NCBI GenBank assembly: GCA_948567375.1
Contig: OX419757.1
Span: 74,717,836 to 74,781,835 of the forward strand
Direction of reading: 5' to 3'
Source: Lunularia cruciata
Lineage: Eukaryota; Streptophyta; Marchantiopsida; Lunulariales; Lunulariaceae
DNA length: 64,000 nt
The translations under genes were made by a program, and so were the position numbers. Shown piece after piece: positions 2,237 through 56,378 of the stretch. Each line of letters begins with the position of its first letter. Positions within the stretch are counted from its first letter, which is position 1. The notes under the pieces are model-generated. The model saw only the letters and a list, made by a program, of their open reading frames with translations. It was not told the DNA's origin and made no database searches.

Positions 2237-3188
2237 GATAGAACAGAGAAAATACATGCAAGTGTGCGTAGGCTAGCTGGCAATTCTCCAAATGAATATC
2301 TCATAATGATTGTAGAAGTGATAGAACAGAGAAAATACATGCAAGTGTGCGTAGACTAGTAGGCAATTCTCCAGAAATGAATATCTCATAAGGATTGTAG
2401 AAGTGATAGAACAGAGAAAATACATGCAATTGTGCGTAAGCTAGCAGACAATTCTCAAGAGATGAATATCTCATAATGATTGTGAGTGCGATATCTCGAT
2501 ATACATAACTGAATAGATTTGACCTTTCAAGTAGTTATGTCCTTTCAATGTGTTACTTGATTTATTCAGTAAGTCATCACATAAAGTTTCACTTGCTATC
2601 GACAATAAATAGTCATTATTTATCCTTTGTATACTATTGTCTCCAACACTCCCACTTAATGATAATTAATTATTGACCTTTATAGATTTGACCTTTCAAG
2701 TAGTTATGTCCTTTCAATGTGTTACTTGATTTATTCAGTAAGTCATCACATAAAGTTTCACTTGCTATCGACAATAAATAGTCATTATTTATCCTTTGTA
2801 TACTATTGTCTCCAACACTCCCACTTAATGAATATCTCATAATGATTGTAGAAGTGATAGAACAGAGAAAATACATGCAAGTGTGCGTAGACTAGTAGGC
2901 AATTCTCCAGAAATGAATATCTCACAAGGATTGTAGAAGTGATAGAACAGAGAAAATACATGCAATTGTGCGTAAGCTAGCAGACAATTCTCAAGAGATG
3001 AATATCTCATAATGATTGTGAGTGCGATATCTCGATATACATAACTGAATAGATTTGACCTTTCAAGTAGTTATGTCCTTTCAATGTGTTACTTGATTTA
3101 TTCAGTAAGTCATCACATAAAGTTTCATTTGCTATCGACAATAAATAGTCATTATTTATCCTTTGTATACTATTGTCTCCAACACTCC
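2237..3188 (-). repeat. Cluster of rearranged copia LTR fragments
   Basis: Minus-strand LTR pieces of the family that begins TGTTGGAGACA and ends CTCTGTTCTA. The LTR 3' end (GATAGAACAGAGAAAATACA on the plus strand) recurs at 2237, 2320, 2405, 2856 and 2941, giving 83-85 bp tandem steps. Longer copies of the body run about 2405-2660, 2680-2850 and 2941-3188. The arrangement indicates repeated unequal recombination or slippage within one LTR. No coding sequence is present. Confidence 0.75.
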
Positions 3189-3208
3189 CACTTAATGATA
3201 ATTAATTA

Positions 3209-28034: not shown

Positions 28035-28726
28035 TGTAACACCCATATGTGCATGTGTGTGGTATTGTGATATTTAACTTGGTATTACAAGTACTTAAGA
28101 GATATTATTTATATAGAGATAAAGGATGGTTCTATATTAGTCATGGTTAGCTAAAGTTAGTCATAGCTAGGATAGAGGGGACCTTACTTTAGAGGAAGTA
28201 GAAAAGATGAGCACCACTATTTTGGATTTTAGTGTGTTGACTTGGTATTATTCCTAGGTGTTTGGCTTTGAGGAAAGAGTTGAGAACTCTTGGGCCCGCA
28301 AGCCTTTTTGTTTTGGATTCTTCTTTAGTCCAAGGATAGCCCATGTGAAGGAATCCTTGACTTAGTGGTTGGGTCAAGATAGGACCACATGCTTAGGAGA
28401 ATATGCCCATGTGAATGGATATTCCTTTCTACCCTTTGACTTTACTTGACTTTTAGTCTAGTAACTTGAGTTACTACGGTAATTAGTAACTTTGGTACGT
28501 AACTATTTCACAAGTATATAAACAAGGGGTGAAGAGGTACTCATCATCCTTTCATTTGCAACTATCTCTCTCTCATTGAGTTCTCTAGTGATCAATATCT
28601 TGAGTCTTGGAGTGTTAGCCTTGGAAGAGTATGATGGAGTTGGGGTTCCTTGCTTTCTTAGTCCATGGTGCGCTATTATAATAGCCATCAAAGGTTCATC
28701 TTGAGTGAGAGACAGGCCGGCTCACA
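28035..28726 (+). mobile_element. Complete solo LTR of the GYP-D family (692 bp)
   Basis: Starts TGTAACACCCATATG and ends GGCTCACA. Its length is identical to the LTRs at 51419-52110 and 55687-56378. It is flanked by GGAC on the left and AGAC on the right, so no perfect target duplication remains. Confidence 0.85.
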
Positions 28727-28851: not shown

Positions 28852-29290
28852 TGTCACGCCATTTGTAGTGTCGCATCTAAATTGCTTAGAAATTGGAGTT
28901 CCAATGATAGTAGTTAGAGTTATTTTAGTAGTTTCTCATAGACTACTTTCCGACGGTCAGATTTTGTGTTTGGGGTATTGACTTCACGGTGGGGCACCGT
29001 CACTTTGCACCGTTTGCACCGTCAAGTGTGCCATCAATTGCACCGTCAAGTTCAGACCTAGCTTGAGTCCAAGAGGTATACTTTCAAAGTGCAACTCCAG
29101 AGAGCTCATTTCTTTGATGTTGAGTCTTCAAGTTCCTAGCTGTGGTGGATAGAGGCCAATGAGCGTCACCTTGATTCTCTATGTTGGAGTGCATGTGGCT
29201 TGACTATAATCAGTGCTCAATTGTTGGCAGTTTATAGAGTGATAGATCAAGTGTTGACTTGAGTTGAGAGTGGTAAACAATCTGATTACA
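28852..29290 (+). mobile_element. 5' LTR of GYP-M
   Basis: Begins TGTCACGCCATTTGTAGTG and shares most of its sequence with 39251-39575 (plus) and 37391-37945 (minus). The right border is placed at TCTGATTACA by loss of similarity, and is less certain because the inverted copy continues about 120 bp further with different sequence. Confidence 0.65.
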
Positions 29291-29390
29291 TCATAGAAGT
29301 GAAGCCATGGGGAAATCAGGTGCAAGAACTTTGAGTGTTGGTGGTGGTCTCCAAGCTCGGTGGATCATTGGTAGCTCAATTCCAGTTCAG

Positions 29391-30440
29391 TTTTTCCCTA
29401 GTGTGCAGAAGCTTGTTCAATTGATATAGATTTGGCAATAAGGCAAACGGTGTACAGAAGCGCTGGCCAATTTTTTAGCAAAGAAAGAGCAAATTTCGAA
29501 GCATTGGTTGTGATTTTGAGCTCAAGAGGTGAAGGCAAGACCAATTTGTTGTGAGTTGGGCTTAGAAAGTCAAATTGAAGGAGGAGTTGGGAAGCTATAG
29601 TTTGGAGGACTTTTGCAAGTTTAGAGGAGTTTTGCCAAATTTTGGAGGAGGTTTGAAGTGGCAAGAAGAAGGGCCTCATTTTGGCCTTTCAAGGCTTCGA
29701 GGCATAGGGCCGTGGGCTATGAGAGGCTACAAAAGCCTAGACGTTTTTCCCTAGTGTGCAGAAGCTTGTTCAATTGATACAAATTTGGCAGTAAGGCAAA
29801 CGGTGTATAGAAGCGCTGGCCAATTTTTTAGCAAAGAAGGAGCAAATTTTGAAGTAGTGGTTGTGATTTTGAGCTCAAGAGGTGAAGGCAAGACCAATTT
29901 GTTGTAAGTTGGGCTCAGAAAGTCAAATTGAAGGGGGAGTTGGGAAGCTATAGTTTGGAAGACTTTTGCAAGTTTGGAGGAGTTTTGCCAAATTTTGGAG
30001 GAGGTTTGAAGTGGCAAGAAGAAGGGCCTCATTTTGGCATTTCAAGGCTTTGAGGCATAGGGCCGTGGGCTATGAGAAGCTACAAAAGCCTAGAAGTTTT
30101 TCCTTGGTGTGCAAAAGCTTATTCAATTGATGCAGATTTGGCAGTAAAGCAAACAGTGTGCGAAAGCACTGGCCAATTTTTGAGCAAAGAAGGAGCAAAT
30201 TTCAAAGAAATGGTTGTGATTTTGAGCTCAAGAGGTGAAAGCAAGACCAACTTGTTGTGAGTTGGGCTCAAAAATTCTAATTGAAGCGGGAGTTGGAAAG
30301 CTATAGTTTGGAGGACTTTTGCAAGTTTGGAGGAGTTTTGCCAATTTTGGAGGAGGTTTGAAGTGGCAAGAAGAAGGGCCTCATTTTGGCATTTCGAGGC
30401 ATAGGGCTGTGGGCTGTGAGAGGCTACGAAAGCCTAAAAG
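29391..30440 (+). repeat. 353-bp tandem repeat, three units, in the GYP-M leader
   Basis: Units start at 29391, 29744 and 30097, exactly 353 bp apart. Each starts TTTTTCC(C/T)T and contains GTGCAGAAGCTTGTTCAATTG-like and GAGGTTTGAAGTGGCAAGAA segments. They lie between LTR and gag. Minus-strand open frames of 93 codons in units 1 and 2 are near identical because of the repeat. Confidence 0.92.
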
Positions 30441-30597: not shown

Positions 30598-31141
30598 CTT
30601 ACTTGTTGTCCTAATGATTGTGCTATTGTTATCTATGCATTTGTAGCTTTGGCTAGGAGAGACAGTTTGATCCCATTCTTGGTGATCTTGGTAGCTTAGG
30701 ACTTAGATATAAACTTCTCTTATGTCAAATGCCAAATGGTGGCAGAGTCAATCCCATGTTGTTTTATGAGATGGAGGGTTTTTGTTTAGATTTCTTGTGA
30801 TTGGACTCCCTCCATTCTTTGCTTCTTGTTTGTGCACCATATTTGTGTGAGGTGCCCTAACTTTTGAGCGTTGGCACTCTGGTGTGTTCTCTGTAGTGAG
30901 GCTAGAGTGATGACTAGTCAGACTACCTTTGTTTCTCTCCGGTGAGGCAAGAAGTGATGACATGTAGACCGTGAGAGTGCATGTTGTGATGGTAAGTTAT
31001 AGGTTGCCCTTTCCCCTAGTGTAGTTATCTTAGCTAGAGTTACATTAGTGAGTGGTGTTCCGTGGGTGTTGGCACTTGGTGAGGTACTTGCAGTTGCAGT
31101 TTGTGGTTCCGGTTTGTGGTTGCAATTGTGGTTACTTTGTC

Positions 31142-33148
31142 ATGACTGAGTTTGTTGGAGATTTTAGAGGATTTAGCCCTGCAGTACACAATGGGTTTAC
31201 TTAGAGTGGTGATCGGTATCAGCCTGTATCTCAAGTCCCAATAAAAGAGGAGATTGACTCTAAGGTGGAGTTTGACACAAGAGTTAATTCAATTGAGAGT
31301 GCACTTGGTGTGTCTGCACCGTTGTTGTAGGATATGGATGAGATTTATGGGGCCTCCAAAGGCCTTAGGCATTACTCTGGTATAATGGGTACCATTGAGT
31401 TGGATGACTTCATCCAAGAGTTTGATAGTTGGTGTGATCTGTAGTGGATGCGGAACCCGACTTTGTTCACACCCTTCATGGCATGGAAAGGGTTGTTTCA
31501 GCACTTGGAGGGTCCATCGATGGACGACTACCATGAGTTCAAGAGAGCTCATTTGGAGGAGATTGAGTTATGGAGACAGTATTGGTCTCCAAACTATGTC
31601 TCTATCACTTTAGGTTTGGTGGCCAAGAATAGATCGGCTGTACCTACGAGTTCTAGCTCAAGTAGTGTTGGTGGAGCTAGTGGAGGTGCACTAGCTGGAG
31701 ATAGTGTTACCACAAGTGGAGATACCGCTACAAGAGGTGGTATGGTATTGGGGTTTAATCCCATGGTGGAGTTCTTCCTATGTTTGAGGTAGAACTACCA
31801 AGGAGTGCAGATTGACAAGCTGAGGAGCTTGTAGGAGTTCCAATGGAAGGCTAGAGAGAACCTACACAAGGCATACACTCACATGGGGCGGCTAATCAGT
31901 TTCACTCAAGGAGTTATTGAGGCCCAAGCAGTCCAATTTTGGTTTGGGATACTGGATAGGGAGTTACGACGTAGAGTTTATGATGCTACATTGTTGCAAG
32001 TGACTTTGCTCACTTTGGGAGTGGTCTTTGGTTTGGCTGAGCATATTGAGCTCAGCATAGTGGAGGAGAGAGTGGTGACATTTGGATTTGGTAGGAAGAC
32101 CTCATCCACGGCTGTGACTTCTTCTAGAGTGCAATAGAGTGCACCACGCCTAGTTGGCTTTTGAGGACAAGGTGGACAGCCCAAATCCTATGGAGCGAGT
32201 GGAGGGCCTAGTAGAGCTAGACCCTTACCTTCATTTTTGGGTCAATAGCAGCCAATGAGTGGTAGTGTTGCTTGTTGGACTTGTGGTGGACCTCACCATA
32301 GGAGAAATTGTACTTAGGGTAGTGGACCTGATACCTCTAGTGCATCATAGGCAGCACAAAGGCAATGTGAGCATTGCCACAAATTTGGTCACACTAGTGA
32401 CCGGTGCTTTGACCTACACCTGGAGTTATGGAGTGGTAGGGCTACTATGGCAGGTAGTAGAGGAGCTCCAGTTCATGGAGCATGAGGTAGTAGAGGATCT
32501 ACACCTAGTAGGGGTGCAATACCTGCCCTTACTTCTGATACAACTATGGCTACTCGGATTGAGCAGTTGGAGCAGAGATTGGCTAGTATAGCTATTGCTC
32601 AGAGGAGATCAGATTTGGGTGCTGAGGCTTCCACCTCATATGTTGGTGACAGAGATGCTTTGGAGTTCATGTGCAGAGCAGCACAAGTAGATGCATTTGC
32701 AGTAGTGACTAGGAGTGCAGTACATGCTCCAGAGCCTAGAGGAGCATTAGTGGAGTTGGACCCACATAGAGGAGAGGTTGGGAGACAAGTCAAACTTCCC
32801 TAGTCTTTCATGCTATTTGAGGCACTACAGACAACATCCATAGTTCCTAGACATCCCAATGCAGGTGTGGTGGGTGGTGATGGAGTGCATGATGGACTAC
32901 TTGTTAGCCAACCACTTGCTACTACACAAACTAAGTCTAGCATGATGTTGGGGGCGGCTCAGCTGATTATGCGGCATCCTTTGTTTTCAGCTAGTGACAT
33001 GTTCACATTGGGAGTTGACCCAGCCCTAGTGTTCCGGTTGGCTACCACACTTTGTGAGAGTAGGGAGAATGCAATTCTTACTACTAGAGTAGAGGTGGTT
33101 GGTAGTGGAGCTGACTTGGTTGAGGAGCATGAGATCCATTTAGCATGA
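31142..33148 (+). pseudogene. GYP-M gag with two CCHC zinc knuckles
   Basis: A single frame runs from ATG at 31142 (MTEFVGDFRGF) to 33148, interrupted by at least a dozen stops. The gag capsid-like part includes WCDL-stop-WMRNPTLFTPF and a region to about 32130. Two knuckles follow: CWTCGGPHHRRNC at 32273-32311 and CEHCHKFGHTSDRC (exact CX2CX4HX4C) at 32366-32407. A short coiled segment (RIEQLEQRLASIAIAQRR) and an Ala/Val-rich linker lead to the protease. Gag packages the RNA. Most stops are TAG replacing CAG. Confidence 0.75.
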
Positions 33149-33191: not shown

Positions 33192-33893
33192 TTGCCAACT
33201 AGACCGGCCTTTGAGAGAGCACAATTCACACCTGGAATTGTCCTATTGGATAACCAAAGGGGGATTTTCCATTTTGTGAGACCTTTAGGGAAGGTCTATA
33301 CACCACAAAGAGTCTTGTTAGACTTTGGTGCGCAGCCCCTTATGTTGGGGAAGGTTGCAATTGTCGATCTGGAGTTATGGAAGACCGATGTGGAGAGGTG
33401 TCCATTTCAGATCCAGACATCTCTAGGTGGTGGTTTGACATAATACATCACACGTAGGGAGCTTGTTGTCTAGGTTCAACCTGGTCATCTGATTGATAGC
33501 TTGGTGGTGAGAGCTCAGGCTATTGCGACAATAGTTGAGTCATATGATGTGCTAGTTGGGGGAGCAATGTTATTCTCCATGGGTTTCAGCATTGACTATT
33601 GGGAGGAGACAATCTCCTATAGACCAAGTTGGCAATCTGGTGAGGGATGGGTATGTTGCCTACCAGTACACTTCAATAGTAGCAGTATTGGCTCACTACA
33701 GTCCGGGACCATGGTAGCATCAGTTTTAGCTTTCAATGGTGCAGTTACTTGGCTTGGTGACTTGTTTGAGGGGAATGCCCATGCAGAAGATACTCCAATA
33801 CCAGAGGAGATCACTTGGATTTGGAGTACAAGTGGGATTGTTCCATCCACCTTGGATGTTCCATTGTGGATTTCAGAGGAAGCATTGCAGTAG
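33192..33893 (+). pseudogene. GYP-M aspartic protease region
   Basis: RVLLDFGAQPLMLGK at about 33309-33353 corresponds to the retropepsin active site (D-S/T-G-A expected; here D-F-G-A at 33321-33332). SYDVLVGGAMLFSMGFSIDYW follows, a conserved post-protease block ending near WQSGEGW. The frame is offset from gag, implying a frameshift near 33150-33190. A linker (33660-33970) leads into the methyltransferase. Confidence 0.7.
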
Positions 33894-33977: not shown

Positions 33978-35000
33978 ATTGCTTTGACACCTCTAGATAC
34001 CACACTCATTGCTTTGCAGTATCTAGTAGAGGGGATTTGTCTATTGGAGTTGTTTGGTGAGATTAGCACCGGACTAGTTGCAGTATTACACGTGGGTATA
34101 CGAGTACAGAGGTACTTGTATGTAGAGAGAGATAAGACTGCTAAGCAAGACTCTATACGTTATGTGGCACACTTGGCCTATCGGTATCCGGAGTTATTAC
34201 CGATGTCAGCAGTCAGAGGTTACCAGAAGGCCCTACCAGCAAACATTTCCTTACTGGGGGCACATGATCTAGAGAGACATGAGCCTATTCACTTGGTGAT
34301 TTTTGGATGGCCATGTTAGGGACATACACGTGCGGGCCGTGGTTTAGGTCTTCAGGAACCTTGTTATGGTGTGTTTTGGGAGATATTATAGATACTACAA
34401 CATCTCCAGGTTCATCAGTCCATTTCTCTAGCTTACCTTTTGGAGAACATGCCTTTGATGGGTGATTCCCGCACCAGAGTGGTGGTGAGGACACATCAGG
34501 TCTATTCTTGAATGGGATCTATTGTATTGTTAGATGCAGCCAGAGTGGGATCACGGGCTCATTGTCTTTGTCTTTGGTGGACGAACCTCTTACCCAAAGA
34601 GGTTTTATAGCGTGCTTATAATGGGATTCAGCAACTTGAGCACATCCTTGTTGATGACATCTTGGATGTTGGATGTTAGTCTCATACAAGTAGTAGTGGC
34701 TGATAGGTCATCTATGGCAATGGTGAACCTAGTTGGATAGCCTAGAGCCACGTTTGCCACACTCGTGAGTTTCCCAAGCCCTCATGCGTTTTGAGAGGGA
34801 GGACCTGGACTTGTTTGGGACTCACAGTTACAAGAGTTGGTGGAGCCCAATGCTGATGAGAGAGAGCAAGCGATGGGTTTTTGCACCGGTATAACCACTA
34901 TTCCAATAGTATCAGAAGCATCAGGTGTTAGGTCAAGCTATGGACCTAAACTGTTTGACCTGGATTATGAGCCTTGGCTTGGCAAAGCAGCGTAGGATGT
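33978..35000 (+). pseudogene. C5-cytosine DNA methyltransferase domain inside GYP-M
   Basis: Motifs appear in the standard order. Motif I is LELFGEISTGL (34044-34076, cofactor-binding loop, with Glu where Gly is usual). Motif II is YLYVERD (34113-34133). Motif IV is FGWPC-stop-G at 34302-34322: the catalytic Cys is TGT at 34314-34316 and the expected Gln codon is TAG. Motif VI is LLENMP (34437-34454). Motif VIII is GSRAHCLCLWWTNLLP (34548-34595), where two expected Arg are Cys by CpG-type change. Motif X is VLGQAMDLNCLTW (34925-34963) after a frameshift. A target-recognition region lies between VIII and X. Such enzymes transfer a methyl group from S-adenosylmethionine to cytosine C5. The order I to X excludes the permuted plant DRM type. 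It lies between protease and reverse transcriptase in the same polyprotein. Confidence 0.88.
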
Positions 35001-35329
35001 GCTTGATAGGCATCACCACTTGGACACTTGTGAGCCCTATGCCAATCAAGACGATTCAGGCACATGCTGGGGGCAATGGACCGAGTAGACATAGTATTCT
35101 TGGGACACAACTAGTAGCTACTAGGGAGAGTGGTCTACTTGGAGTCCATCCAAGTGAGCGTGGGCTACTTGGAGTCCATCCTTGGTCCACTTGGGATGCA
35201 GCTAGAGGATGTGTGGAGCTTGCAGTCAAAGTGGAGGGAGTTTTTCACATAGAGATTGGGAGCTCTAGTGGTCAGGGGCATGACACAATTGCTCCCAAGG
35301 GCCCAGTGTAGCAGCCAATCAGTACGTCT

Positions 35330-36740
35330 CCCACTCTTACTACAGTTACAAAGGATACTTGGGAGCCAGATCTTGGACCCAAGCTTATTAGAGAGGAAAG
35401 ACAGAAGGTTTGGAGGTTCTTGAGGAGTCAAACAAGTTGTTTTACCTTTAGTATAAAGGATTTGGGTGCTTTAAAGGGACCTGGTATACGGATTGAGCTG
35501 ACTAGCAATACACTAGTTTTCCAACGTCCTTATCGATACAGTGAGATGGAGAGGACATTGATTCAGAGCCGGAGTAGTGATCTTTTTGAGGCTAGTTTGG
35601 TGGAGATTTTACATGGAGAGTATGCATCAGCGACAGTGATGCCAACCAAGAAGGATATGCATGGCAACTACACAGATAGGTGGATGTGTGGATATTACCG
35701 TCCTATCAACCGACAAACCAGGGCTGACCGGTATGCCATGCCTACATTGGAGGAGATTTTTGATGCAATTGGGCATGCAAATGTCTTCAATACTTTGGAT
35801 CTTTGAGCATGATATCATCAATTGCTGATCAGAGAGGAGGATAAGTCCAAGACAGCATTTTAGGCTATTGATCCTCAAGGTAAGGATGTGTTATATTAGT
35901 AGAGGTTCTTACCGTTTGGGTTAAAAAACGCTCTTGTTGAGTTCTAAAGGGTCATGGATAGGATCCTAGTTGGATTGGATTTTGCTCGATGCAATATTGG
36001 ATATTGATGACATTTGGTCTATAGGACTACTATGGAGGAGCATGAGAGATAGTTGTTGGAGGTATTTGAGAGGCTGAGATCTCATGGACTCAAATTACAT
36101 CTTGGGAAGTGTAGGTTCTTCTACAAGCAAGTTGAGTATTTGGGTCACACTATCTACCCCGGAGGACTTGGTGTTTAGCAGACCAAGGTGGAGGCTATTG
36201 CACGTATTCCTCGGCCTACGGATGTGAGCAAAGTGCAAGCATTCCTTGGGTTGGCAAACTTTTATCACCGCTAAGTTAGAGGATTTAGTGTCATCGCCAA
36301 GGCCTTGACGAAGCTGACCAAGCTTACACAGGAGTGGTGTTGGGGAGATGAGCAAGAGAGAGCTTTTGTAGAGCTCAAGGAGAGGTTGACATCTACTCCT
36401 ATTTTGAGGAGACCAATCAGAGGATGACCATTTTAGGTTCATACTGATTGGAGTATGTTGGGGCTTGGAGCGGCGCTCACCCAACATGATGATGAGGGGA
36501 AGGAGTTTGTGGTGGCCTATGCTAGTAGCTCCAACAATTTAGCGGAGGCAAAGTATATAGTTCATATGAGAGAGAGTGCTTGGCAGCATTTTAGGTAGTA
36601 GCACATTTCTGATGTTACCTATTTGGTAACCCCTTCACTGATCATCAACCACTAAAGTAGTTGATAGAGTCCGACAAGCTTTCGTGGAAGCTTGCACGTG
36701 GGCTCTGATTTTACAAGAGTATGATGTCACAGTTGTTCAT
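35330..36740 (+). pseudogene. GYP-M reverse transcriptase and RNase H
   Basis: ORF 35420-35806 reads through CGYYRPINRQTRADRYAMPT to NVFNTLDL, the palm A block with the first catalytic Asp. A stop follows, then WYHQLLIREEDKSKTAF and FLPFGLKNA. The YIDD-equivalent (ATTGATGAC at about 36001-36009) lies across a frameshift. KLHLGKCRFF, VEYLGHTI and VQAFLGLANFYHR are typical Ty3/gypsy. RNase H starts at VHTDWSMLGLGAALTQHDD (about 36436-36490). Stops are largely CAG or CAA to TAG or TAA. Confidence 0.88.
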
Positions 36741-37039: not shown

Positions 37040-38600
37040 GTTGGGGCCAAGGAGAGAGACCATGTTCTTCAGCGAGCTCGACGGTTCAGATTGGAGGGCA
37101 GACACCTTTTGCATGTATGGGAGGATAGTAGAGTGCAAGTAGTACCATTTCCATCTCAAAGACCATAGTTGGTCCATCATGCTCATGAGGAGCTAGGACA
37201 TTTTGGAGTCAAGCGTACATATAGCTTACTCTAGAGTCACTATTGGTGGTGCGGTATGCAGACTGAGGTATAGCAGTTTGTTGCCAGATGTGTGGTTTGT
37301 GACCAAGTTAGAGCATCATTCAATGCTCTTATGCCACAATTACACCCATTACCTATCATGGGATTGGGTTACCATTGGAGTTTGGACTTTATCGTACGTA
37401 TATACATTGCTACACAACATACATTGTTGTCAACATCATACACTATAGAAACACAACTCACACATAAGTCATACATAGACTCTAAAGTGCCACAATAATC
37501 AAATTGTTTACCACTCTCAACTCAACTCAACTCATATTAGTACTTGATCTGTCATTCTATAAACTGCCAACAACTGGGCACTAATTACAGTCAAGCCACA
37601 CCCACTCCAACATAGAGAATCCAAGTGACGCTCATTGGCCTTTGTCCACCATAGCCAGGAACTCGAAGGCTCAACATCAGAGAAGTGAGCTCTCTGGAGC
37701 TGCACTTTGAAAGTATACCCCCTGGACTCGAGCTAAGTCTGAACCCTAACGGTCCCACTGATGGCACACCCAATGGTGCAAATAGTGCAAAGTGATGGTA
37801 GGCCCCACTGTGAATTCAATACCCTAAACACAAAATCTGACCATTGGAAAGTAGTCTATGAGAAAATGTTGAAATAACTCTAACTCCTATCACTGGAACT
37901 CCAGTATCTGAGCAATCTAGATGCGACACTACAAATGGCATGACAACTTTGCTAGACCTTTACCGCTGACTGTGAGACATCATTGGTATGTTTTGGTGAT
38001 GGTGGAGCACTTCTCCAAGTGGATTGAGTTGGTGGTACTTCTTGACAAGTCTAGTGAAGGGACAGCTTACTTGTTCTTGGATCGAGTTCTTAGTCATTTT
38101 GGTGCACCAGTTGAGGTTTTGACTGATCAGGGTACAGAGTTCTTGGGAGAGTTTCGGGTCTTGTGTGACAAGGCTTTGATTGATCACCGTACTACCTCCC
38201 GAGATCACCCTGAGGCAGATGGCTTAGCAGAGAGAGTGGTCCAAATGGTGAAGAGAGGATTATGAAAGTATGGTTTGTAGAGAGGCCACTTGGGAGATTG
38301 GGATCTCCAGTTACCTTGGTTGGCCATGGGCTATAGGTTCAGCCTCCTTAGCATCCTTCTCTCCGTACTTTCTACTCTATGGAAGAGATCCAGATTTACT
38401 TGCAGCCATTCATCGAGATGTTATTGTAGTTTTGGACTTGGATGACCCCGATGTATAGATAAGCGCATGTTCTCAATGGGCAAAGATCTTTCGGAGAGTG
38501 ATGCCGATGGCCTTTGAGAACTTGGCGATTGCTCAACATAGAGATACTTTATGCTATGCTACCATTTGAGGAGGAGGTTATAGACCCTCAATCCGTCAAT
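37040..38600 (+). pseudogene. GYP-M integrase, split by an inverted LTR fragment
   Basis: The HHCC zinc-binding part (HAHEELGHFGVKRTY ... CVVCDQV) precedes 37320. The catalytic core begins WSLDF (first Asp) and is interrupted at 37391. It resumes at 37951 with ARPLPLTVRHHWYVLVMVEH, LTDQGTEF (second Asp, about 38125-38148) and DGLAERVVQ (catalytic Glu, about 38218-38244), so all three acidic residues survive. FSPYFLLYGRDP and a GPY/F-like module (38600-38780) follow. Confidence 0.88.
37391..37945 (-). mobile_element. Inverted GYP-M LTR insertion in the integrase, ACTTT target duplication
   Basis: The 555-bp insert is flanked by ACTTT (37386-37390 and 37946-37950). Removing it joins the integrase frame exactly at WSLDF. 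The minus strand begins TGTCATGCCATTTGTAGTGT, the family LTR start. After about 435 bp it continues into sequence like 39135-39248 and ends GTACGAT, not the canonical CA. Confidence 0.85.
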
Positions 38601-38656: not shown

Positions 38657-38974
38657 TTGATAGGCCACACTATCTTGAGAGTGTGTGAGGTTTTGCCATC
38701 TGGAGTCCTTGTGTTAGAAGGACGTGATGGTGTTGTTTGGAAGGATCATGTGCGCAATTGTGTGCCATACCACCTCCCAAACATTGATGGTACTATGAAC
38801 CTAAGCTTGGCACTTGTATGTGCAAGCTTGAGGTGTATGTTATGTGGCTCTTCTGGTGGAGCTGCTACTATGTTAGTGGGTGATAGTTGTTTGAGAGGAT
38901 GGCATATGGCATGTATGACTCCTCCCCTCATGGTGGTTCTTCAAGGACAATGGTTATGTCCTAGATGTATTTGA
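38657..38974 (+). CDS. C-terminal part of the GYP-M polyprotein with PHD finger
   Basis: This intact 105-codon stretch ends the polyprotein. Residues 1-41 are the end of the integrase GPY/F-like module (LRVCEVLPSGVLVLEGRDG). Residues 60-104 (38834-38968) form a PHD finger: C60-x2-C63, G75 in place of the third Cys, C78, H83-x2-C86, W99, C101-x2-C104, with the TPPL and GQWLCPRC signatures of PHD fingers. PHD fingers bind histone H3 tails, often by Lys4 methylation state. By analogy with chromodomains of chromoviruses it may steer integration. The GGT codon at 38879-38881 has lost a zinc ligand, so this copy probably does not fold. The methionine is not a true start. Confidence 0.85.
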   Translation: MIGHTILRVCEVLPSGVLVLEGRDGVVWKDHVRNCVPYHLPNIDGTMNLSLALVCASLRCMLCGSSGGAATMLVGDSCLRGWHMACMTPPLMVVLQGQWLCPRCI

Positions 38975-39250
38975 CCTATAGCTAGTTCATTCTTTATATG
39001 GTATAGATTGCAGACAGGCGACTAACGATGGGGCTCCATAGCACCCGGCCTCCTAATCTTTGCCCATCATAAGGTATACCATATACTTGGAATAGATGGC
39101 TATCTAGAGTTAGAGGGACCTAACCGCCAGCTAGGAGGACGATTGTAGCACTTTAGAGTCTATGTATGACTTATGTGTGAGTTGTGCTTCTATAGTATAT
39201 GGTGTTGACAGCAATGTATGTTGTGTAGCGATGTATATACACACAATAGT
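38975..39250 (+). other. Non-coding stretch between GYP-M polyprotein and 3' LTR
   Basis: No coding sequence. The part 39135-39248 (GCACTTTAGAGTCTATGTAT...) is repeated in the inverted insert at 37391-37500. A purine-rich AGAGTTAGAGGGA is near 39107-39119, but no convincing polypurine tract abuts the LTR. Confidence 0.45.
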
Positions 39251-39575
39251 TGTCACACCATTTGTAGTATTATATCTAGATTGCTCAGACATTGGATTTC
39301 TAGTGATAGTAGATAGAGTTATTTCAGTAGTTTCTCATAGACTACTTTTTGACGGTCAGATTTTGTGTTTGGGGTACTGATTTCACGGTGGGGCTCACCG
39401 TCACTTTGCACCATTTGCACCATCAAGTGTGCCATTAGTGGGACTGTTAGGGTTCAGACCTAGCTCAAGTCCAAAGGGTATACTTTCAAAGTGCAGCTCC
39501 AGAGAGCTCACTTCTTTGATGTTGAGCCTTCGAGTTCCTGGTTATGGTGGACAAAGGCCGGCGAGCATCACCTGG
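39251..39575 (+). mobile_element. 3' LTR of GYP-M, truncated
   Basis: TGTCACACCATTTGTAGT matches the 5' LTR start. The LTR runs 325 bp and is cut by the LTR beginning at 39576. Confidence 0.7.
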
Positions 39576-43603: not shown

Positions 43604-44960
43604 TTGCATAACTTATTTTTAGATGATCTACCAAAGGGATTACCCTCCGATTGTGGTATGCTCTTCAAGGTTGAGTTATTGCCAAAGAATACTTTAGTGA
43701 GTAGACCAATCTATCGGCTCTCACCAAAGGAGTTGGAGGAGTTGCAAACAACACTTACAAAGTTGTTGGAGAATGACTTCATATGACATGATACCTCTCC
43801 TTGGGGAGCACCGATACTATTTGTTCCAAAGAAGGATGGAGGACTTTGTTTTTGTATTGATTACCTTGGGCTCAATAAGCAAATAATGAAGAATGCATAT
43901 CCCTTACCTTGGATTGATGACTTCATTGATCAATTGAGTAGAGCACAGTACTTTTCCAAGTTGGATCTCCATAGTGGCTATTGGCAAGTCCCCATTGATA
44001 GGAAGGATGTGCAAAAAACTGCCTTTCACACAAGGTATGGGCATTTTGAGTAGAGAGTTTTACCTTTCGGGCTGCCTAATGCTCCATTAGTCATCATGGA
44101 TTAGATGCATTGGGTGTTGGATGGACTATTGGATTGGTACATGGTAATGTTCTTGGATAATATCTTAATCTATATAGTAAGACATAGGCAGAACACATGA
44201 ATCATGTGCAAGAAGTCCTAAGATGACTATAAAAATGGTGATTTTATTGCAAGAAGTCAAATTGTGCCTTTAGTCAAAAGGAAGTCACCTTCTTGTCTCA
44301 CAAGATCTCATTGAAAGGGATCAAGATGGAAGAGGAGAAAAATCAAGGCCATTATTGATTGGCCTACTCCAAAGGATGTTAAAAAAAGTACACGCATTTA
44401 ATGGATTGGCTAGTTTTTATTGACGGTTCATTCATTATTATGCTCATGTGGTTGCACCATTGACTGACCTCTTGAGAAAGAACTTGAACTTCCAATGGAT
44501 CACCAAGCATGAAAAAGCATTCTAGAAGTTGAAACATATGGTATCTTCAAGACCCATCCTTCAACCATATGATCCTCAACTACCTTATGTGGTTGATTTT
44601 GCTACTTCTAACTTTGCAATTGGAGCAGTGTTGCAATAAGAATTCTTGGATGGACTACATCCCAATGCCTTTGTGTCTTGTTGACTAAATACAACTGAAA
44701 GAAATTACTCTGCTTGAGATCAAGAACAACCTACAATGGTATATGCCACCAAGGTATGGAGGCATTATCTCTTGGGGAAACAAGTGATCATGCAAATTGA
44801 TGACAAATCATTGTTGTAGACCTTACACTTGGAACACATGAAGAGTCAACATTGTTGATGTGAGGAGCAACTCCAATTGTTTGATATCAAACTTGAGTGC
44901 AAACTAGGTTGGTTCCATGTCATCCTTGATGCTCTATCACAACGACCTGATTTGAAGTCT
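43604..44960 (+). pseudogene. GYP-C reverse transcriptase and RNase H
   Basis: [67 protein letters not shown] and LPFGLPNAP are standard Ty3/gypsy blocks. The YxDD-type site reads FLDNILIY (44150-44173), so the second catalytic Asp is Asn. Frameshifts follow. The RNase H part is only recognisable in pieces near 44520-44960. Confidence 0.85.
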
Positions 44961-45049
44961 CTTCCTCTCATCACGGTAGCAATTACAACTGACTCCAAGA
45001 TTACAACTGACTACAATTGACTCCAAGATCCAAAATGAGTTTTGGTCTG

Positions 45050-46250
45050 CTCTACAGCAGATCCCTTCTTCCAAATGGTACATGGTCATCTTACAGCATG
45101 TGACAAGGAGTACAACACCTTCTCCTTCAAGGAAAGCCTTCTATTCTATGCGGACCGGATCTATATTCTAGCCAAAGGTGATCTTTGACTTGTGCATCTT
45201 CAAGAAGCCCATGATTTACCAATAGCTAGTCACATGGGTGTGGACAAGACCTTGGATACCCTCCAATGCCAATGGTGGTGGCCCAACATGACACGAGATG
45301 TTTGAGAGTTTGTCTGATCATGTGAAAACTTTCAATGCAACAAGGCCAACAACCAGAAGCCAAGTGGACTCCTTCAACCACTCCCCATTCCATCCGCTTG
45401 ATGGGAACATATGAGTTTAGATCTCATCACATCCTTGCCCAAGACAAAGCAAGGACATACAGCAATTGTGATGTTTGTGGATAAGCTTAGTAAGCAAATC
45501 CACTTGGCACCAACCTTTGATACCATGGATGCTCCAACCTTAGCGCAAATCTACTTTGACAATGTCTTCAAGTATGCCATGTGTACTCATCTCTGACCAT
45601 GATCCTTGATTCACTAGGAAGTTTTGGCAAGCACTCTTCCAGATACTTGGCACCAAGTTTGCTTTGTCCACAGCCTATCATCCTCAAACTGATGGACAAA
45701 CCAAATATGCAAATCATACCTTGGAAAATACGTTGTGTGCCTTTGTTAATGTCCACCATACCAATTGAGATGAATATCTTGTAGTTGTAGAATTTGCCTA
45801 CAACAATTCCAAATATGCAAGCACTAGATTTTCTTATTTCTTTTTCAATTTTGGCCAAGATCTGCTTGTTCTAGATTCTCTTCTTGCTCCTCCCTCATAC
45901 TTCAACCTTCTTGACCACCATCTCCCAATCTCTCCAACAAGCCAAATCTCACCTCCTTGTTGCTTAGAATTGTCAAAAACAATATGCTGACCACCATCAT
46001 TGTGATCTCACCTTTGAAGTTGATGATAAAGTCATGTTATCCTCTAGTAACCTACCCCTCCCACTAGATACCCAAGTTCCTAAACTTGCCCTTAATTGGA
46101 TAGGACCCTTTGATGTCACCCAAATCATCTCTCTTGTTGCTTATCAACTTGCCTTACCTTGTCATATGTGCATCCACCATATCTTTCATATTTCCAAGTT
46201 AAAACCCTTTGTTCCTAACCCATCTTCCTTTTCCTCTTGTGTCTAACCTC
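45050..46250 (+). pseudogene. GYP-C integrase remnant
   Basis: MSLDLITSLPKTKQGHTAIVMFVDKLSK (ORF 45411-45596) is the core start with two Asp. Downstream frames switch repeatedly. The C-terminal part KLALNWIGPFDVTQII (about 46082-46130) is the GPF module. Confidence 0.75.
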
Positions 46251-51418: not shown

Positions 51419-52110
51419 TGTAACACCCATATGTGCATGTGTGTGGTATTGTGATATTTAACTTGGTATTACAAGTACTTAAGAGATATTATTTATATAG
51501 AAATAAAGGATGGTTCTATATTAGTCATAATTAGCTAAATTTAGTCATAGCTAAGATAGAGGGGACCTTACTTTAGAGGAAGTAGAAAAGATGAGCACCA
51601 CTATTTTGGATTTTAGTGTATTGACTTGGTATTATTCTTAGGTGTTTGGCTTTGAGGAAAGAGTTGAGAACTCTTGGGCCCGCAAGCCTTTTTGTTTTGG
51701 ATTCTTCTTTAGTCCAAGGATAGCCCATGTGAAGGAATCCTTGACTTAGTGGTTGGGTCAAGATAAGACCACATGCTTAGGGGAATATGCCCATGTGAAT
51801 GGATATTCCTTTCTACTTTTTTGACTTTACTTGACTTTTAGTCTAGTAACTTGAGTTACTACGGTAATTAGTAACTTTGGTATGTAACTATTTCACAAGT
51901 ATATAAGCAAGGGGTGAGGAAGTACTCATCATCCTTTCATTTGCACTATCCCTCTCTCATTGAGTTCTCTAGTGAGCAATGTTTTGAGTCTTGGAGTGTT
52001 AGCCTTGGAGGAGTATGATGGAGTTTGGGTTCCTTGCCTTCTTAGTCCATGGTGCGCTACCATAATAGCCATCAGAGATTCATCCTAAGTGAGAGACAAG
52101 CCGGCTCACA
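51419..52110 (+). mobile_element. 5' LTR of GYP-D
   Basis: TGTAACACCCATATG to GGCTCACA. A likely core promoter is near 51899-51907 (AGTATATAAGC). Confidence 0.92.
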
Positions 52111-53676: not shown

Positions 53677-53790
53677 ATGGGGAAACTTCCGGTTTTCTTT
53701 GGCAAGGATGGAGAAGATATGGAGGCCTTTGTAAGAGACTTCAAGAGAACTTGTCATCTTCTCATTTTCCAACAAGGCTTATGCATTGAC
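53677..53790 (+). pseudogene. GYP-D gag N-terminus, joined to polymerase by a deletion
   Basis: MGKLPVFFGKDGEDMEAFVRDFKRTC is a typical gypsy gag start (VFFGKD-E-D-x-AFVRDF). After about 26 residues the sequence passes into the region preceding RNase H, showing an internal deletion that removed protease and the polymerase palm. Confidence 0.65.
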
Positions 53791-54754
53791 CATCAACATG
53801 AAGAAGGATGTAGATTACATGGTGATTTTGGAAGACAAGGAGGCTCTCAAAGCTTTTGAGGAGCTCAAGAAATCCCTTGTTGTAGCTCCAATTCTTGCTA
53901 AACCTGATTGGAGTAAGCCTTTCATCCTCTACACTAATGCTTCTAATGTAGCTATAGGATGCACTCTTAGTCAATTAGACCAAGATGGGCATGATCATCC
54001 AATAGCTTATGCTAGTAGGCAGATGGTTTCAGCAGAGAAGAACTACTCTGTCACGGAGAGAGAAGGGTTGGCAGTGATCTTTGGTCTCAAGAAGTTTAGA
54101 CACTACTTGATTGGAGGGAAAGCCACCATTGTCACGGATCACAAGGCTTTGAAGTACATCTTCAACAAGCCTAATATTGAAGGGAGACTAGCAAGATGGA
54201 TGATACTCTTGTCTGAGTATGACTACACCATTGAGGATAGGCCAGGAAAGAAACATGCAAATGCTGATTTGTTATCTAGAGCCTATGATCATGATGGAGA
54301 TGAGCCAGTGGATGACTCCTTCCCAAATGAGGAGCTCATGACAATCTCAATCACTCAAGAGGTTCCAATGGAGTACAAGGAGATTGTGGACTTTGTGACA
54401 AGAGGTAACTATCTAGAAGGGATGCATGCTAGGGAGAGGAAGGCCCTTGTAGCAAGATCTAGACCTTACACAATGGTGGAGGATATTCTTTTTCACCAAG
54501 GAGCAGATGGTCTACTTCGAAGAGCAGTGTGTAAGGAAGAGTCTATCCTACTCATAAAGGAGTTTCATGAAGGTTTAGTATGTGGAGGACACTTTGCAGG
54601 AAAGGTGATTGCTTTCAAGATTCTAGATGCAGGTTACCATTGGAGAGGGATTTTCAAGGATTGTCTTGATTATTGCAAAACTTGTCATGTTTCTCAAGCT
54701 TTTGCTAGAAAGTCTACATCCACTCCACCACTTAGATCAATTCTATTGCTATGA
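53786..54754 (+). CDS. GYP-D RNase H and integrase zinc domain
   Basis: A 322-codon open frame. AFEELKKSLVVAPILAKPDW ends the polymerase connection. FILYTNASNVAIGCTLSQ starts RNase H (first Asp of the usual TDAS is Asn). YASRQMVSAEKNYSVTEREGLAV and TDHKALKYIF, RPGKKHANADLLSR complete it. The integrase HHCC domain (EFHEGLVCGGHFAGKV ... CLDYCKTCHV) follows. The frame ends at a TGA (54752-54754) in place of an expected CGA. Confidence 0.85.
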   Translation: MTINMKKDVDYMVILEDKEALKAFEELKKSLVVAPILAKPDWSKPFILYTNASNVAIGCTLSQLDQDGHDHPIAYASRQMVSAEKNYSVTEREGLAVIFGLKKFRHYLIGGKATIVTDHKALKYIFNKPNIEGRLARWMILLSEYDYTIEDRPGKKHANADLLSRAYDHDGDEPVDDSFPNEELMTISITQEVPMEYKEIVDFVTRGNYLEGMHARERKALVARSRPYTMVEDILFHQGADGLLRRAVCKEESILLIKEFHEGLVCGGHFAGKVIAFKILDAGYHWRGIFKDCLDYCKTCHVSQAFARKSTSTPPLRSILLL

Positions 54755-55638
54755 CCTTTTGAGAAGTGAGGAATTGATTTTGTAGGTCCTCTCAATAGAA
54801 CCCCAAGGAACAATTGGTACATTGTGGTAGTTACTGATTACCTTACCTATTGGGTTGAGGCTAGACCATTGAGGGACAAGAATGAAGATGAAGTGGGTAG
54901 ATTTCTTTATGAACGCATTATCACTAGGTTTGGATGCCCTTTGGAGTTAGTTTCTGATAGAGGAGGAGAGTTTACATGAAGCATTACTACAGCCATGCTA
55001 CGTCATTTCTCTATCACACATAGAGTAACTACATCCTATAAGCCAAATTCCAATGGCTTGGCAAAGAGAACCAATCAGACCTTGTGCATGATGTTGGCCA
55101 AAGATGTAGAAATGGAGGGGGCTAAACATCATTGGGACAAGAGGATTCATGCAGTTTTGTGGGAGTATAGGACAACCATGAAGACTTCCACCGGATTTTC
55201 TCCATTTCAATTGGTGTATGGTATTGAGTCTACCTTACCTATTCACTTTGATCTTCCTATGTTCCAAAGCATTCATAGGAGATTGAAGAAAGCACAAGGA
55301 GGTGATGAGAGAAGTCAAGAAAGGATCAACTCATGGAGTTGGAAGAGGCAAGAGCAGTTGCTATGGTTCGAGTGGAGCAAGCCCAAAGGAAACAAAAGGA
55401 GAGCTACAACAAGAGGCAAGGCAAGAAGAAGGTGGAGACTTTCAAAGAAGGTGATTGGGTAATGTTGTTTGATTCCATTCGATTCAAGAGAGTGCAAAAG
55501 AAGTTTTTGCCTAAGTACTTTGGACCTTTCATAATGGAGAAGGTGTGGGGCAATTACACCTATGATCTCAAGGAGTTGGGAGGAAGACACTTTGATAGAA
55601 TCAACCATGATAAGTTGAAGATGTACCATAGAAGGTAG
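54755..55638 (+). pseudogene. GYP-D integrase core and C-terminus
   Basis: GIDFVGPLNRTPRNNWYIVV and LVSDRGGEF give the two catalytic Asp. At the position of the catalytic Glu the sequence is NGLAKRTNQTL, so Glu is Lys. WEYRTTMKTSTGFSPFQLVYG ends the core. The C-terminal module (KKKVETFKEGDWVMLFDS ... KFLPKYFGPFIMEKVW, ORF 55333-55638) is in another frame. No chromodomain or PHD finger follows. Confidence 0.85.
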
Positions 55639-55686: not shown

Positions 55687-56378
55687 TGAAACACCCATAT
55701 GTGCATGTGTGTGGTATTGTGATATTTAACTTGGTATTACAAGTACTTAAGAGATATTATTTATATAGAAATAAAGGATGGTTCTATATTAGTCATAATT
55801 AGCTAAATTTAGTCATAGCTAAGATAGAGGGGACCTTACTTTAGAGGAAGTAGAAAAGATGAGCACCACTATTTTGGATTTTAGTGTGTTGACTTGGTAT
55901 TATTCTTAGGTGTTTGGCTTTGAGGAAAGAGTTGAGAACTCTTGGGCCCGCAAGCCTTTTTGTTTTGGATTCTTCTTTAGTCCAAGGATAGCCCATGTGA
56001 AGGAATCCTTGACTTAGTGGTTGGGTCAAGATAAGATCACATGCTTAGGGGAATATGCCCATGTGAATGGATATTCCTTTCTACTTTTTTGACTTTACTT
56101 GACTTTTAGTCTAGTAACTTGAGTTACTACGGTAATTAGTAACTTTGGTATGTAACTATTTCACAAGTATATAAGCAAGGGGTGAGGAAGTACTCATCAT
56201 CCTTTCATTTGCACTATCCCTCTCTCATTGAGTTCTCTAGTGAGCAATGTTTTGAGTCTTGGAGTGTTAGCCTTGGAGGAGTATGATGGAGTTTGGGTTC
56301 CTTGCCTTCTTAGTCCATGGTGCGCTACCATAATAGCCATCAGAGGTTCATCCTGAGTGAGAGACAGGCCGGCTCACA
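55687..56378 (+). mobile_element. 3' LTR of GYP-D
   Basis: Begins TGAAACACCC (T to A at the third base) and ends GGCTCACA. It is preceded by TTCGGGGGTAAA, a short purine-rich primer candidate. Confidence 0.92.

Follow-up and report, generated by a model that had tools for sequence, protein, structure and literature searches.

A decayed Ty3/gypsy retrotransposon in the liverwort Lunularia cruciata that encodes a DNMT3-type cytosine methyltransferase

A decayed, unpermuted C5-cytosine methyltransferase of the DNMT3 type is encoded at 34,041-34,951 on the plus strand of the window (the whole stretch of 64,000 nucleotides of Lunularia cruciata DNA that was analyzed), inside a Ty3/gypsy element. 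The reading favored here, with moderate confidence, is that an integrase-bearing Ty3/gypsy retrotransposon, equipped with a DNMT3-type methyltransferase of its own that it would use as proposed below, left this old copy, which was once methylated and has since decayed. The initial annotation of this DNA had reported methyltransferase motifs in order within a gypsy element, and that description holds: along the plus strand lie motif I (34041-34076), motif IV (34302-34316; FGWPC), motif VI (34437-34454), motif VIII (34551-34586), the region of motif IX (34858-34881) and motif X (34928-34951). The catalytic Cys is retained and the reading frame is disrupted; given two frame changes (one ahead of motif IX, another ahead of motif X) and 7 in-frame stops among 338 codons when the frame of a sister copy is followed, the window copy is dead.

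With stops written as X, the main piece of the window domain finds 29 PDB sequences at E ≤ 1, all of them DNMT3A, 3B or 3C (best E 2.8e-4). Among proteins it has 53 matches at E ≤ 0.01, the best at 61% identity and E 2.4e-92, with liverworts and Sphagnum among the relatives; taken together, the matches are far above chance level. The surroundings, at first taken for those of a vascular plant, are contradicted as such by the named relatives (Calypogeia, Marchantia, Riccia, Sphagnum; most other matches are metagenome proteins); the suggestion that such an element occurs in a land plant was correct, a methyltransferase-bearing gypsy element being present in this liverwort genome. In the proposed profile check against Pfam DNA_methylase (PF00145) the main window piece reaches E 0.038, below the cut-off, and neither of the short pieces, which bear motifs IX and X, gives a match; the domain of an open sister copy exceeds the cut-off, with E 3.4e-7, and stays under that of the NCBIfam dcm model. 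The sister domain has 31 PDB matches at E ≤ 0.01, of which 29 are DNMT3A, 3B or 3C; the others are the HaeIII methylase and 4onj, which we take to be a DRM-type entry and which spans only the first part of the domain. A structure model of the sister domain, built from 43 aligned sequences, has a mean pLDDT of 93.7, and the best 50 of its 183 PDB fold matches (E ≤ 0.001) are all DNMT3A, 3B or 3C, some entries being complexes with 3L; the best E among the matches listed is 5.8e-20. The element enzyme has DNMT3 proteins as its best matches and motifs I to X in order.

Table 1. Parts of the element copy in the window, with positions counted from the first letter of the window
Feature	Position	Strand	Basis or remark
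A1, 5' terminal repeat, begins TGTCACGCC	28852..29288	+	83.6% to 449-bp A repeat of sister copy L014; start motif at 28852
gag part of ORF1, decayed	31088..33145	+	tblastn, sister ORF1 residues 19-706, 80%
Retropepsin active-site region	33312..33347	+	D-F-G here; D-S-G in 16/17 matches among 20 sister copies
DNMT3-type C5-cytosine methyltransferase domain, motifs I to X, broken, 2 frame changes	34041..34951	+	motif positions, Pfam, PDB and protein matches
ORF1 end: UAG then CAGCCA, = CARYYA leaky-stop context	35309..35317	+	read in window copy
Reverse transcriptase and RNase H, decayed	35672..36720	+	tblastn of sister ORF2, Pfam bounds; positions computed
Integrase (zinc-binding part and rve core), split by solo A-B unit	37154..38211	+	Pfam and sister ORF2; positions computed
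Solo A-B unit, 556 bp, same family, reversed within integrase	37390..37945	-	flanked by 4-bp duplication ACTT
PHD finger at ORF2 close	38834..38968	+	Pfam PHD E 9.5e-9 window; 2.2e-10 sister
B1 repeat	39142..39244	+	93% to B repeat of L014
A2 repeat, broken off at 39575	39251..39575	+	86% to first 324 bases of L014 A repeat

The element comprises an ORF1 encoding gag, protease and methyltransferase, followed after one stop, in the same frame, by an ORF2 encoding reverse transcriptase (RT), RNase H, integrase and a PHD finger (Table 1). The CCHC zinc knuckle of gag is seen in 19 of 20 copies. The protease assignment has its basis in a conserved L-L-D-S-G-A-Q site in the sister copies; a relative, P0068, shows an aspartyl-protease match under the cut-off (E 1.7e-4). 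Pfam gave no match for the RT and protease pieces of the window, RT and RNase H are clear by Pfam in sister ORF2 (which matches the window at 67-90% identity across six pieces), and the integrase piece of the window matches rve at E 1.3e-10. The PHD pattern occurs in 19 of 20 copies, one interrupted by a stop, and the finger matches the PHD entries of CHD4 and KDM5B in the PDB; there is no chromodomain among the Pfam matches of ORF2 (E ≤ 0.1), the PHD finger being present instead. A B2 repeat was sought within the window and not found. Recombination between A1 and A2 of a different copy would account for the solo A-B unit with its ACTT duplication.

Copies elsewhere in the genome show that the methyltransferase is no peculiarity of the window. 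A PF00145 search (123 scored of 2,161 candidates) returned mostly matches to the same stretch of the model; copies were also picked by RT, for which 150 of 21,521 loose candidates were scored and 20 copies taken, spread through the list of the best 150. Among these 20 the methyltransferase is whole in 18, interrupted by an insertion in one and partial in one, where the last 370 of 1,280 methyltransferase bases remain. All 19 RT-picked copies that cover the domain have the Pro-Cys site, and 5 of the 19 are without a stop in the domain. The ORF1-end pattern has 2,049 exact matches in the genome (reversed control, 0); because it demands UAG-CARYYA, it counts copies and not the degree of conservation of the stop. 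At about 9.95 kb, the length of one copy, these matches would amount to roughly 20 Mb if every copy were full length. Since an ORF1 frame of 1,428 or 1,431 codons is found at at least 11 distinct places, and 16 of the best 150 RT matches are stop-free in the 1,037-codon ORF2 frame, the family has probably been active recently. The A repeats of four sister copies have diverged (K2P) by 0.009, 0.020, 0.032 (measured over just 129 bases) and 0.110, against 0.157 for those of the window copy.

Selection was quantified as median pairwise dN/dS in young and in older pairs of copies chosen for long open frames, with the window copy left out. With rising divergence the ratio for the methyltransferase falls from 0.70 to 0.23 (0.77 to 0.37 in the RT-picked sample), and from young to older pairs it falls from 0.45 to 0.22 for RT-RNase H, from 0.77 to 0.23 for gag, from 0.81 to 0.41 for the protease and from 0.61 to 0.33 for the integrase; purifying selection acts on the enzyme. 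In the window copy itself dN/dS is 0.52 for the methyltransferase versus 0.27 for RT-RNase H. The 18 whole domains among 20 RT-picked copies, together with a dN/dS that falls with divergence as it does in gag and RT, show that in this genome the methyltransferase domain is a fixed and regular component of the element and is under selection.

Comparison of the window copy with two sisters yields 435 differences, of which 318 are C>T or G>A, and these fall on 95 of 318 CG sites, 133 of 551 CHG sites and 90 of 1,840 CHH sites. Because such changes are far more frequent at CG and CHG than at CHH, the window copy was once methylated at CG and CHG and then mutated away. This decay is compatible with host silencing and does not separate methylation by the host from methylation by the element. 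The CpG observed/expected ratio, taken for this family and the window only, is 0.40-0.47 across 20 sister copies, 0.27 for the window element and 0.28 over the window as a whole; with CHG decay pointing to host methylation of the CMT type, the decay is no proof of self-methylation.

The stop that ends ORF1 reads UAG-CARYYA in 21 of 21 copies, comprising the window copy and 20 others selected because their open frames are long; among the 20 RT-picked copies, an exact string located the site in 14, all of which read UAG-CARYYA. CARYYA is the readthrough context of tobacco mosaic virus (TMV), as described in the available part of PMC4132726. Since the motif tolerates most transitions, finding it in recent copies says little for selection, and DNA in which the stop context can be read comes from this genome only; a scan of viral contigs for relatives showing the context in other species found no relative. 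At the protein level, ten relatives among 22 proteins with a readable motif X (P0012, P0034, P0042, P0056, P0058, P0065 and P0068-P0071) end 86-140 residues past that motif without RT, and P0054 of this genome likewise ends 119 residues past it without RT; five of the 22 end within 49 residues of motif X and are uninformative. Five plant gene models (P0051, P0059, P0061, P0064, P0076) continue from the methyltransferase into RT, P0066 and P0067 each contain both, and P0082 has the other gene order. In the models that join methyltransferase to RT the stop may have been spliced out by the model, or they may be true fusions.

The ends of the element show an unusual arrangement of repeats. In 18 of 20 copies the 3' end consists of B1 (107 bp), GC, A2 (449 bp) and B2 (107 bp), an arrangement missing from L017 and L026; the B1-A2 join is exactly GACAGCTGTC in 11 of the 18 and a variant in 7. 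The 5' end is a single A repeat starting with TGTC in all 13 of those 18 copies in which it was read, the remaining five 5' ends lying outside the fetched stretch or not being found (L010 showed only 74 bases of A). The element termini are TGTC and GACA, and perfect 4-bp target duplications flank 11 of the 13 copies, L021 and L013 being those without. Integrated copies therefore have split direct repeats in the order A-internal-B-GC-A-B, with 4-bp target duplications. An ordinary two-LTR element was dropped from consideration, as the B repeat flanks the 3' A repeat on both sides. As to a DIRS element, an rve integrase occupies the place of the tyrosine recombinase, and the copies carry target duplications, whereas to our knowledge DIRS retrotransposons make none. 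The candidate primer-binding site matches what we take to be a Met-tRNA site in part only, and no claim is made for it. Copies of the form A-B-A-internal-B, expected if a circle were opened at either B-GC-A site, were not seen among the copies, which had been picked by other criteria. In L013, A1 and A2 are just 88% alike, discordant and without target duplication, yet ORF2 is open; this copy is possibly a recombinant.

The activity of the enzyme, the readthrough, self-methylation and the replication route are predicted here from the sequences, as follows. A minority of ribosomes would read through the ORF1 stop, which would place the methyltransferase in the particle at Gag level, with RT and integrase at a lower level. 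In the particle or the integration complex the enzyme would methylate CG sites of the new element DNA, and the new copy would arrive pre-marked, resembling silent host DNA. Reverse transcription may run from a primer site after A1 to a purine-rich tract before B1 (both located by eye), giving a B-A terminal repeat; the element DNA would then close A to B, and the integrase would open the palindrome GACA-GC-TGTC within the B-A repeat, yielding A-internal-B-A-B. The PHD finger may direct the integrase to chromatin in a given histone H3 state, a role like that ascribed to the chromodomain in chromoviruses.

Other readings of the enzyme differ in how well they survive. It is unlikely that the enzyme works chiefly in trans, methylating host chromatin or rival elements and so disturbing or exploiting host silencing, rather than its own DNA: the algal counterpart considered below has land-plant-like methylation patterns according to its authors (PMC5890265, in the part available). 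The abundance of the element (2,049 motif matches), the de novo (DNMT3) type of its enzyme and a PHD finger that reads chromatin would all suit action in trans, but ORF1 fuses the enzyme to Gag, so a location in the particle is expected. Somewhat less likely again is an RNA or RNA-DNA hybrid of reverse transcription as substrate, with the enzyme serving replication and not silencing; it is encoded adjoining RT and some C5-methyltransferases do act on RNA, but the closest sequences and folds are those of the DNA enzymes DNMT3A, 3B and 3C, not of DNMT2. That the domain is retained as a structural or DNA-binding part without catalysis is improbable: although catalysis is here a prediction, the catalytic Cys is present in every RT-picked copy that covers the site, and 26 of the 29 retroelement rows of the tree set have P-C or E-C there (the remaining three do not fit the pattern). 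A chance and functionless insertion of a host DNMT3 or DRM gene into the window copy alone, for which the broken state of that copy might speak and against which the initial annotation had proposed the test of genome copies, is ruled out by the whole domain in 18 of the 20 RT-picked copies, and selection on the domain and the single clade of retroelement domains apart from host DNMT3 and host DRM also count against it. Methylation by the element of its own new DNA is the predicted role retained; it may, as the initial annotation proposed, soften host silencing.

The origin of the enzyme was addressed with trees. A tree of 44 rows unites the 28 retroelement domains in a single clade (100/100), outside of which stand host DNMT3, DNMT3C (a row that is presumably mouse) and 14 metagenome enzymes; the element enzyme is a separate, long-stemmed clade outside the few cellular DNMT3 rows. 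It is a reduced version of a 74-row tree, in which the same retroelement clade was recovered: of the 42 metagenome rows there, one in three was retained, and the long rows of host DRM and P0086 were dropped. Both trees carry long-branch warnings. Within the clade, 19 rows of the order protease-methyltransferase-RT (99/96) stand against nine of the order RNase H-methyltransferase-integrase (99/96), the kind having been assigned by kinship for proteins that end before RT. RT lies ahead of the enzyme in seven of these nine, and P0081 and P0084 show only the integrase within the same protein. A 14-row RT tree holds the RNase H-methyltransferase-integrase kind together (92/81), with P0086 and one poorly covered window element placed without resolution. 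The PHD finger occurs in both gene-order kinds (that of P0086 is below the cut-off). These results fit one ancient uptake of the enzyme followed by relocation; two uptakes from one source are possible.

Among the sequences of the host itself are the unpermuted DNMT3-like L001 and L004 and a permuted DRM-like exon, L002. DRM enzymes have motifs VI-X ahead of I-V, an order found in L002, whereas the element runs from I to X. The argument of the initial annotation from unpermuted order against capture of a DRM gene is borne out by the trees, where the element enzyme groups neither with host DRM nor with host DNMT3; DRM capture is excluded by the motif order and by this grouping apart from host DRM.

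Chromoviruses (Ty3/gypsy elements with a chromodomain) resemble the liverwort element in having a chromatin-reading module after the integrase; unlike them, it has a PHD finger, and ORF2 has no chromodomain match. The Chlamydomonas element CrREM1, a gypsy retrotransposon of a green alga, also has a PHD finger; we know of no methyltransferase in it. The closest known system is KnitGypsy-Dnmt3 of the charophyte alga Klebsormidium nitens, which has a DNMT3 domain in gypsy Pol (de Mendoza et al. 2018, PMC5890265) and is compared here by its published description only, in the part available. Alike in both are the gypsy domain composition (RT, RNase H and rve integrase, all found here), an unpermuted DNMT3-type enzyme in the coding region (in the alga, the Pol ORF), purifying selection on the enzyme and the repeats, for which the legend in PMC5890265 states a DIRS structure given as A-coding-B-A-B; here the B-A-B end is seen in 18 of 20 copies and both ends were read in 13. 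The liverwort element differs in its land-plant host, where it has 2,049 motif matches, and may also differ in the PHD finger and in the leaky stop, by which the enzyme comes to lie with Gag. In yeast no methylation by the Klebsormidium enzyme was shown, a result its authors call inconclusive (PMC5890265). No row named Klebsormidium occurs among the relatives listed (in one case the best 120 of 605), most rows being nameless. SymbioDIRS-Dnmt3 of Symbiodinium, as described in the same partly available source (PMC5890265), is alike in its DNMT3 domain in Pol and its split repeats, and CG methylation by its isolated domain was demonstrated in yeast by the authors; it has a tyrosine recombinase, unlike the liverwort element with its rve integrase and 4-bp target duplications. 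A literature search, covering few subscription journals, recognized no report of such elements in bryophytes or other land plants, and the available part of a 2025 paper (PMC12344493) mentions no cases beyond those of 2018 from a streptophyte and a dinoflagellate. The liverwort element represents, in a land plant, a variant of the type first described from Klebsormidium.

Cytosine methylation is one of the main routes by which plants silence retrotransposons, and an element with a selected, de novo-type methyltransferase still reaches thousands of copies; why it does so is testable in land plants, and Marchantia and Sphagnum carry relatives of the element. The placement on the Gag side and the split repeats lead to concrete predictions on dose, DNA closure and integration. 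Linde et al. 2023 (PMC9985172, in the part available) ascribe most of the extra size of the large Lunularia genome to Ty3/Gypsy bursts, and the methyltransferase-bearing element is one candidate for them. As a tentative and rather doubtful generalization, there may be a gypsy clade spanning the green lineage that arose by a single uptake of a DNMT3-type enzyme with a PHD finger, holds the enzyme before RT or after RNase H, opens its closed DNA by integrase at the repeat palindrome, delivers the enzyme at Gag dose and has helped to enlarge one liverwort genome.

Several minor observations were made. Beyond the PHD finger, the C-terminal part of P0079 has a DPWAGTG...TSPW pattern that by eye resembles an N6-type methyltransferase, with no Pfam match at E ≤ 0.01. 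Rfam and tRNA searches of the window found none. Other gypsy remains lie at 43655-45575 and 53756-55240, 27-32% identical to ORF2 and without a match to the methyltransferase ORF. The stretch 2291-3198 holds direct repeats that are almost perfect and lie 169 to 536 bp from one another. The 5' leader of the element contains, at 29390-30395, three tandem unit copies with 353-bp spacing, each matched by one and the same stretch of L014. A 300-bp stretch occurs in three copies (28035-28334, 51419-51718 and 55687-55986), 98-99% identical to a reference copy, and one of them sits about 500 bp upstream of the 5' end of the element.
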